Below are positions 38,340 to 41,179 of a stretch of 41,211 nucleotides of DNA, in pieces. The notes below the pieces were generated by a model. It was not told the origin of the DNA, ran no database searches, and saw nothing but the letters and a program-made list of their open reading frames with translations. The position numbers were made by a program, and so were the translations under genes. Within the stretch, counting starts at the first letter, position 1. Each line of letters starts with the position of its first letter. Source of the DNA: a bacterium (GTDB lineage Bacteria > Actinomycetota > Acidimicrobiia > Spongiisociales > ZC4RG35); assembly GCA_024639335.1 (NCBI GenBank), contig JAHEIN010000009.1, positions 1-41,211 on the forward strand, in the 5' to 3' direction.

Positions 38340-38549
38340 TCATCCTGTCCGATCCGAATCCTCGTCGTTTCCCACCACCGAGTCGTCTTGGCGCCGCTTG
38401 GGCGGCCGGCCGGCCCTTCGAGCGGCCTCTACGAGCACGGCCTCCATCTGGGCGTTGACCGAGCGGAACTCGTCGGCCGCCCACTTCTCGTAGACGACGA
38501 AGAGCTCGGGCGGGATCCTCAACAAGAACTGTTTGCGATCGCGCGCCAC
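38340..38549 (-). CDS. Arc/ribbon-helix-helix-type small protein
   Basis: The 69-aa protein reads KQFLLRIPPELFVVYEKWAA, DEFRSVNAQMEAVLVEAARR and a basic then acidic tail. This fits the ribbon-helix-helix fold: beta strand K-Q-F-L-L-R, helix, S-V-N-A-Q turn, helix. The start lies 8 bases after the SPFH gene. It may bind the TGATATCA boxes upstream of the operon. Confidence 0.85.
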   Translation of the reverse strand: MARDRKQFLLRIPPELFVVYEKWAADEFRSVNAQMEAVLVEAARRAGRPPKRRQDDSVVGNDEDSDRTG

Positions 38550-39448: not shown

Positions 39449-39472
39449 TGGCAGCCTTTCTGAAGCGATCTG

Positions 39473-39507
39473 TGATATGATATCATACTGATATCATCTT
39501 GATATGG
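39473..39507. promoter_or_regulatory. AT-rich TGATATCA box array, candidate operator
   Basis: The palindrome TGATATCA occurs at 39478-39485 and 39489-39496, and TGATATGG follows at 39500-39507: three boxes exactly 11 bp apart. A further half-site TGATATGA starts at 39473. This AT-rich island is unlike the GC-rich surroundings. It lies in the divergent region between the SPFH-RHH operon and the SRPBCC genes, so one array could control both. Confidence 0.7.
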
Positions 39508-39595
39508 TGGAGATCCTGCACGAGCGATGACGTGACCAGTGGCACTTGCGGCTCCTCCGCACCCACGCGAATCATCGAGGTGGAAAGGAGAAAGT

Positions 39596-40237
39596 GTGAC
39601 CACCGCCCTGGAACGCAACACATTGCTGATCGACCGGTACCTGCCTGATTTCGATGAGACCAGGATCGAACATCTCGTGATCGATGGTTCGCCCGAGGCG
39701 GTCTACGAGACCATGCGCGATGTCGACTTCTTGATGGTCCATTCGCCCATAACCGACCTCGCGCTCTTCGTACGATCGCTCCCCGACAAGGTCGGAAGAC
39801 TGCGCAACAGGAACGAACCGCCTGCCCCGCCGTTGCCGTCACTGAAACTGTCTGCGATGTTCGATCGGGAAGGCTTCGAACGCCAGGACGTCATGGAAGG
39901 CTGGGTCGGACTCGCCGAGGAACGCGCCCGAGAGATCGTCTTCGGTGCGGTTGGGAAGCCGTGGATGGCAGACATCGAGTGGAAGACCGTTCCTCCAGAT
40001 GAGTTCGCCGGATTCGACGAGCCGGGCTGGGCGAAGATCGTGGCTTCCCTCTCGGTGCGCGAGTACGGGTCGGAGCGATCGATCCTCACCTACGAAGCGA
40101 GGACGGCAATGACAGACGACGACAGCCGCCAGCGCTTCTCCCGGTACTGGACCGTGGTATCGCCATTCGTCGGGACGATCATGCGGGCGCTGCTGCGAAC
40201 CGTTGCAGTGAGCGTTCCGGACGACGCCACTAGTTGA
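39596..40237 (+). CDS. SRPBCC-like (START/lipid-transport fold) protein, copy 1
   Basis: The 213-aa protein has EHLVIDGSPEAVYETMRDVD at the N-terminus, DLALFVRSLPDKVGRL, GWVGLAEERAREIVFGAVGK, FDEPGWAKIVASLSVREYGS and LTYEARTAMTDDDSRQRFSR followed by YWTVVSPFVGTIMR. The pattern fits SRPBCC/polyketide-cyclase-like ligand-binding proteins. GTG 39596 has AGGAG at 5 bases; the upstream ORF extension lacks this. It is about half identical to the next gene. Confidence 0.75.
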   Translation: MTTALERNTLLIDRYLPDFDETRIEHLVIDGSPEAVYETMRDVDFLMVHSPITDLALFVRSLPDKVGRLRNRNEPPAPPLPSLKLSAMFDREGFERQDVMEGWVGLAEERAREIVFGAVGKPWMADIEWKTVPPDEFAGFDEPGWAKIVASLSVREYGSERSILTYEARTAMTDDDSRQRFSRYWTVVSPFVGTIMRALLRTVAVSVPDDATS

Positions 40238-40496: not shown

Positions 40497-40543
40497 TTCG
40501 ACAAGGGCACCTGCCGTGCACGTTGAGGAGCGAAGGAGATCAG

Positions 40544-41179
40544 CTGACCACTTCTATCGAGCAGCCCACAAGTTTCATCGACGAATACATGCCCGCCTAC
40601 GACTTCGTCAGAGTCGAGCAGCGAGTCATCGAGGCTCCCGCTCACGACGTGTACAAGGTGATGCGCGACCTCGACTGCCTCATGATCCACTCGCCGGTCA
40701 CGGACTTGGCCGTGTTCGTCCGGCATCTACCCAACCGGCTGGGACGGTCGGACGCAGAAACGATCTCCAGAACGCCACCGATGCCGCGATTCAGACTGTC
40801 CGCACTCTTCGACGAGCGGAGCCCCGAGGTGGAACGCGCGATCGGCGCATGGGTCGGTATCGCCGATCATCCCGAGCGTGCGCTGGTGTTCGGCGCCGTC
40901 GGCACACCATGGCGGGCTCGAGTCGACTGGAAGTCGGTTCAGCCAAACGAGGTGGCGACATTCGACGAACCAGGCTGGGCAAAGATAATCGCATCGCTCT
41001 CCGTCCAGGAACTCGGCGCTCATCACTGCCTCCTCACCTACGAAACGAGAAGTGCAGCGACCGATGCCGACAGCCGGGAACGCTTCCGCCGGTATTGGGC
41101 GGCGATCTCACCGTTCGTCGCCGCCATCATGCGCTCGATGCTGCGAACTGTCGAGGAACAGATGGACGAGACTGGCTGA
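40544..41179 (+). CDS. SRPBCC-like (START/lipid-transport fold) protein, copy 2, possible CTG start
   Basis: The 211-aa protein parallels copy 1: DEYMPAYDFVRVEQRVIEAP, VMRDLDCLMIHSPVTDLAVF, GAVGTPWRARVDWKSVQPNE, FDEPGWAKIIASLSVQELG and RERFRRYWAAISPFVAAIM. AAGGAG (40533-40538) lies exactly 5 bases before CTG 40544, and copy 1 has the same spacing before GTG. The first codons correspond (V-T-T-A and L-T-T-S). A TTG at 40523 in frame lacks a ribosome binding site. So CTG is the likely start. A tandem duplication is evident. Confidence 0.75.
   Translation: MTTSIEQPTSFIDEYMPAYDFVRVEQRVIEAPAHDVYKVMRDLDCLMIHSPVTDLAVFVRHLPNRLGRSDAETISRTPPMPRFRLSALFDERSPEVERAIGAWVGIADHPERALVFGAVGTPWRARVDWKSVQPNEVATFDEPGWAKIIASLSVQELGAHHCLLTYETRSAATDADSRERFRRYWAAISPFVAAIMRSMLRTVEEQMDETG

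Follow-up and report, generated by a model that had tools for sequence, protein, structure and literature searches.

The Arc repressor of phage P22, a ribbon-helix-helix (RHH) protein of the MetJ/Arc superfamily, recognises a 21-bp operator as two dimers whose centres are about 11 bp apart. In the case of MetJ, the RHH dimers sit on 8-bp repeats, the AGACGTCT boxes found before methionine genes. The CIRCE boxes of HrcA and the NrdR boxes precede the same genes in different phyla, with a conserved operator sequence. Antitoxin operators are described in passages of two reports, namely, relO, where sites for the autorepressor RelB are placed about one turn apart over the -10 element with a spacing that is essential (PMC2812701), and the yefM-yoeB operator, with a 12-bp centre spacing, YefM itself not being an RHH protein (PMC4803016). 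These passages also present steric repression by an operator lying over the promoter (PMC4803016; relBE, PMC2812701), and the omega repressor as RHH dimers lined up on heptads, forming 7-bp repeats (PMC4803016). Autorepression by RHH proteins is already known as a kind of control, and the operon and operator presented below are most likely a new member of it.

The window, that is, the whole stretch of 41,211 nucleotides that was analysed, carries a two-gene operon coding for an SPFH/Band-7 protein and an Arc-like RHH protein, and an array of palindromic boxes at its head. On the basis of sequence comparisons, we propose with a probability of about 0.87 that the SPFH-RHH operon is autoregulated and has its operator in these boxes, RHH dimers repressing its own promoter. 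Arc is the nearest described protein by sequence profile, and a spacing of about 11 bp is found in both systems. Unlike Arc, however, the protein has a chromosomal SPFH partner and perfect palindromic boxes, in arrays of 2 to 4, and the strand Asn of Arc is a Leu here. With RelB/relO and YefM, the locus shares a (proposed) autorepressor in a two-gene operon and adjacent sites about one turn apart over the -10 element, but the partner is a membrane SPFH protein and not a toxin, the register is 11 bp, and the box is another one. Repeated short boxes for RHH dimers, proposed in the present case, are likewise shared with omega and MetJ, whereas the repeat is 11 bp instead of 7 bp (omega) or 8 bp (MetJ), and nearly a single site contrasts with their multi-gene regulons. 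As for CIRCE/HrcA and NrdR, the box is kept across phyla, but the protein folds and the genes differ.

Two assignments to known groups were rejected. A MetJ-like regulon does not fit, since both the box (TGATATCA) and the genes (SPFH-RHH) are wrong for it, nor does a type II toxin–antitoxin module, because the partner of the RHH protein is SPFH/Band-7 (79/80 named loci). No description of an SPFH-RHH operon with its operator was found in the open-licence literature, and almost nothing linking SPFH, stomatin or Band 7 with RHH, the Arc family, HicB or gene neighbourhood. For TGATATCA, the titles of the listed matches were unrelated to the SPFH-RHH operon; excerpts of these sources show the string in primers (PMC4628125) and in a promoter table of the B. 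subtilis SigB regulon (PMC7824861), and the sole RHH mention in the excerpts of PMC8656257 is a VirC2 reference.

Operon, promoter and box array

The array lies on the + strand at 39473-39507 (TGATATGATATCATACTGATATCATCTTGATATGG), and its components are listed in Table 1. It is a real feature: the original prediction had placed it correctly, and its tandem of two boxes matches 16/16 specified positions, against a maximum of 13 in 3000 dinucleotide shuffles of the intergenic region (148 bp, 39449-39596). Two perfect boxes and an imperfect one are in register, and the partial copy at 39473 overlaps box 1 off the register. The G+C content falls from 0.64 for the window as a whole and 0.51 for the intergenic region to 0.29 for the array. 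The window has 7 single boxes with at most one mismatch, no more than chance would give (7.1 expected). Exact TGATATCA is present at five places in the window's own 3.2-Mb genome, two of which are in the array, and no second tandem with up to two mismatches was found anywhere in this genome.

Table 1. Features of the SPFH-RHH locus in the window
Feature	Position	Strand	Remark	Evidence
Partial box TGATATGA (7/8)	39473..39480		overlaps box 1, 5 bp off the 11-bp register	sequence
Predicted operator box 1, perfect palindrome TGATATCA (8/8)	39478..39485			sequence; exact box before SPFH in 97/112 loci
Predicted operator box 2, perfect palindrome TGATATCA (8/8)	39489..39496		11 bp from box 1	sequence; spacing conserved
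Predicted operator box 3, TGATATGG (6/8)	39500..39507		11 bp from box 2	sequence; +22 boxes in 21/97 loci
SPFH/Band-7 membrane-scaffold protein, 296 aa	38558..39448	-	first operon gene	Pfam PF01145, E 1.1e-24
69-aa Arc-like RHH protein	38340..38549	-	second gene, proposed autorepressor	Pfam Arc, PDB profile, SPFH neighbour
Probable extended -10 element TGATATCAT of the SPFH-RHH promoter	39477..39485	-	overlaps box 1	sequence

On the minus strand, the SPFH gene starts 24 nt past the array and is followed after 8 nt by the RHH gene. The 69-aa product scores 17.1 bits with Pfam Arc, just under the cut-off of 20.4, but a profile built from 21 relatives retrieves Arc structures from the PDB (1u9p, E 1.4e-5), and the protein conforms to the strand-helix-helix profile of the MetJ/Arc superfamily, about 45 residues long. 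Its strand QFLLR aligns over QFNLR of Arc. In AmrZ, another RHH protein, DNA is read by the strand residues Lys-Val-Arg, as stated in a passage of PMC3325190; the matching residues would be position 7 (Gln, Ser, Lys or Arg), a hydrophobic residue (mostly Leu) and an invariant Arg. The AlphaFold monomer obtained from the RHH alignment was poor (mean pLDDT 70) and no strand was predicted.

With regard to the promoter, a -10-like TATCAT is found on the minus strand (39482-39477) inside box 1 and, together with the TG of the box, makes up an extended -10; in the window it goes with a weak -35 (ATATCA, 3/6). Among the 97 upstream regions with an exact box, 22 have TTGACA (at least 5/6) exactly 20 bp before it, other offsets (8 to 41) giving 8 at most. 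The TATCAT of the box is thus 17 bp after the -35, so the operator would cover the -10 element and the spacer, an arrangement shared with the antitoxin operators that act by steric repression. The array therefore probably covers the promoter of the two-gene operon and, as in autoregulated RHH operons, repeated sites spaced by one turn lie over the operon's own promoter. The proposed mechanism is as follows: the 69-aa protein would form RHH dimers that bind the boxes cooperatively and, since these cover the -10 and the spacer, the bound dimers would exclude RNA polymerase, a repression expected to hold the SPFH scaffold and the repressor itself at a set level.

Conservation of the boxes across phyla

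The survey of 59 other genomes among the window's relatives revealed the RHH gene in eight, and the boxes in seven of these RHH loci (L005-L011). In the eighth (L004, from G001, of the window's genus, about 1086-1490), the front part of the SPFH gene and the promoter are missing beside an SRPBCC-like gene, and the RHH gene is kept with no array. In the wider sample, 84,980 species genomes were scanned, and the best 80 of at least 581 confirmed relatives were kept; the SPFH gene is upstream of the RHH gene in 79 of these 80 named loci, the exception (L017) beginning at the RHH gene. From 118 loci, 112 upstream regions were obtained, leaving out L009, L017, L124, L127 and L128 (no SPFH match) and L069 (short). 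Exact TGATATCA occurs upstream of SPFH in 97 of the 112, and no other palindromic 8-mer in more than 9 of the 78 named upstream regions. By lineage, taken in part from the presumed genus, the exact box is found in Actinomycetota (8/8), Bacillota (25/25), Bacteroidota (18/25), Cyanobacteria (10/10), Acidobacteria (2/2), Aminicenantes (1/1), and Ignavibacteria and BMS3Abin03 (4/4), as against Deinococcus-Thermus (0/2) and Hydrogenedentota (0/1). Two of these last three loci, L020 (14/16) and L088 (15/16), have an additional gene at the start of the operon and the tandem upstream of it. The third, Thermus L032, is a true exception: SPFH and RHH genes are present, yet no array was found in the locus, nor in the genome with up to two mismatches.

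The spacing is retained as well. Around the first exact box, further boxes with at most two mismatches are present at -11 in 53/97, at +11 in 68/97 and at +22 in 21/97 regions, compared with a mean of 0.45 of the 97 regions at other offsets. The predicted operator of the SPFH-RHH operon is thus widely conserved, in several phyla.

Variant arrangements were also noticed. In family f31 (L135, L139 and L140), a central TGATATCA has a mirror-like variant box at 11 bp to either side, e.g., TGAGACCA and TGGTCTCA in L135. In L127 (G440, about 1456-1998), one short frame codes for no more of SPFH than the membrane N-terminus and the last residues, owing either to a real deletion or to an assembly error, and RHH gene and array are kept.

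Array, RHH gene and number of sites

Loci were scored with a fixed 16-position pattern taken from the window, using a threshold of at least 13/16. This score is reached by 111 of 126 analysable RHH loci, a set without L017, L124, L127 and L128 (no SPFH match), L044 and L069 (short) and duplicate upstream regions; in 116 of the 126, at most one of 200 shuffles attains the score of the locus. By comparison, 14 SPFH loci without RHH score 6 to 9, the same as shuffles; three of them are from one genus, two are QmcA/NfeD-like, and nine are paralogues of one large-genome genus, which we take to be Streptomyces. Streptomyces-like loci carry weaker arrays (11-12/16).

To avoid selection by RHH, loci were also picked by SPFH alone in 161 Bacilli genomes and in 395 genomes of the window's class. 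Examination covered 46 of the 48 SPFH places in Bacilli, the remaining two being L027's own and a fragment. Forty of the 42 RHH loci score at least 13/16; among the four in which no RHH gene was found, L238, L255 and L259 are below 13, and L263 reaches it, the contig stopping short of the RHH place. The window's class has 37 SPFH places, re-tested without the window itself and the truncated copy in G001; the threshold is reached in 19/22 RHH loci versus 0/12 RHH-less loci. When the assessable SPFH-picked loci are pooled, the array is present in 59/62 with RHH and in 0/15 without, figures that omit, after inspection, L256 (upstream masked), L298 (gene fragment, 9/16) and L263, and become 59/64 versus 1/16 with these three put back; L297 was dropped from the table, its region being short. 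Fisher's test for 59/62 versus 0/15 gives 2e-13 with loci taken as independent, kinship inflating the counts, and 8e-7 when the RHH-less loci are counted as six lineages. The RHH loci below the threshold in this table are L244 (12), L286 (11) and L292 (12). One genus displays both states, L287 and L291 having RHH and array, and L290 having neither. Hence, as in an autoregulated RHH operon, the site is present with the RHH gene and absent without it, Thermus L032 being the exception.

Tandems elsewhere in the genomes are few. Among the matches listed, 23 of 26 tandems with up to two mismatches, in the 15 genomes of the phylum for which both a tandem and an RHH gene appear, lie within 1.3 kb upstream of RHH; this count draws on 28 of 51 RHH entries and 75 listed places, the genomes of the other entries having no pattern place among the matches listed. 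In the 38 named RHH genomes, again counted from 75 listed places, the RHH locus contains all 19 tandems with no more than one mismatch, and those with two mismatches are distributed as 18 inside and 38 outside, among the matches listed. The regulator thus looks close to single-site, with weaker sites possible, and would have no other targets in vivo. Since the window's genome lacks another tandem with up to two mismatches, a wide regulon was rejected there; on the matches listed, it is unlikely in the 38 named genomes.

Four tandems of the phylum scan are away from SPFH and directly upstream of other RHH genes. As read from translations, L092 carries a VapB-like gene with a PIN-like gene; L115 has a CopG-type RHH gene with PIN, and L095 and L096 have HicB-type RHH genes, adjoined by DUF4097 in L095. 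In L119, the array is downstream of a VapB-PIN-like pair, and no RHH gene was seen on reading the loci of the L112 and L114 tandems. It is as if several RHH families shared the TGATATCA operator grammar. In family f20 (G138, G104, G076 and G256), a recurrent tandem TGATATCAAAACGATATCA, or near variants of it, was observed with no Arc-like RHH match.

Divergent gene, binding protein and SPFH tail

The original prediction extended the control to both directions, namely, to the divergent SRPBCC gene as well. The SPFH and SRPBCC genes do share the 148-bp intergenic region that contains the array, which is some 90 bp upstream of the likely start of SRPBCC. However, across phyla the array stays with the SPFH promoter, whereas the gene on its other side varies (from translations, thiolase-like in L006, cysteine-synthase-like in L008 and Clp-like in L010), and the upstream region of the second SRPBCC copy has no site (best 7/16). 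Control of the divergent gene is therefore unsupported, and we consider it unlikely that RHH bound at the array acts on both sides. Of the adjacent + strand genes at 39539-40237 and 40523-41179, called SRPBCC in the original prediction, it can be said that their products are paralogues (52% identity over 209 residues) with no match in Pfam or NCBIfam.

Could another DNA-binding protein occupy the boxes, its targets simply happening to be SPFH-RHH operons? Several families use palindromic tandem sites, and binding by the RHH protein is a prediction here. On the other hand, the RHH gene always accompanies the box, which is gone where RHH is lost; close tandems, among the matches listed for the 38 named genomes, are at the SPFH-RHH operon only; and a regulator encoded elsewhere usually marks its own gene too. 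Such a protein is very unlikely. The adjacent RHH protein, designated as a natural candidate by the original prediction, is the likely binder on comparative grounds: the array tracks its gene (59/62 versus 0/15), heads the operon even when an extra gene comes first (L020, L088), and is close to a single-site element in RHH genomes. The prediction had also made its fate depend on the conservation of the boxes in relatives, and they are kept in 7 related loci and in 97/112 of the wider set.

Slightly less probable still is that the boxes are mainly a conserved strong promoter, with an extended -10 (TGnTATnAT) and incidental palindromes. The TATCAT in the box at the right distance from a TTGACA-like -35 (22/97 loci) and the T directly after 61 of the 105 exact boxes would agree with it, but a promoter has no need of palindromes repeated at -11, +11 and +22, and SPFH genes without RHH also need promoters, among which the array is found in 0/15. 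A plain promoter as the sole cause was rejected on these offsets and RHH-less loci. Finally, a chance arrangement in an AT-rich patch, with which the chance level of single boxes in the window would be compatible, is refuted by the shuffles (0/3000 reaching the score), the upstream-region counts, the scores of RHH loci, the SPFH-picked loci and the conservation across several phyla.

Returning to the autoregulated SPFH-RHH operon, the SPFH protein may itself take part in the control. A C-terminal tail N-x-G-[T/S]-[L/I/V] followed by at least one residue is present in 165 of 176 RHH-linked SPFH proteins, and in 4 of 14 without RHH. Where the start of the RHH gene is over 100 nt distant, 17/17 RHH-linked proteins have it, which speaks against a constraint from the ribosome site alone. 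Of the six RHH-less lineages, three have lost the strict motif, so the link between tail and RHH is only suggestive. In the RHH-less family f6 (L154-L156, L266-L268, L270-L274 and L276), all SPFH tails read N/S-T-D-[T/A]-L, with Asp replacing Gly. The SPFH tail may touch the repressor; that SPFH is a sensor, whose tail (N-x-G-[T/S]-L-Y type) would dock on the RHH dimer so that the state of the scaffold sets its own synthesis, is a rather doubtful extension. In this case, the tail would either draw the repressor to the membrane or hold it on DNA. If the tail link is true, a membrane scaffold would signal its condition to the repressor of its own operon.

Few bacterial operators keep an exact sequence across phyla, and that of the SPFH-RHH operon does so before one gene pair. 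It offers an entry to the control of SPFH proteins, for which a proposed regulator, a site and a predicted sign can now be named.
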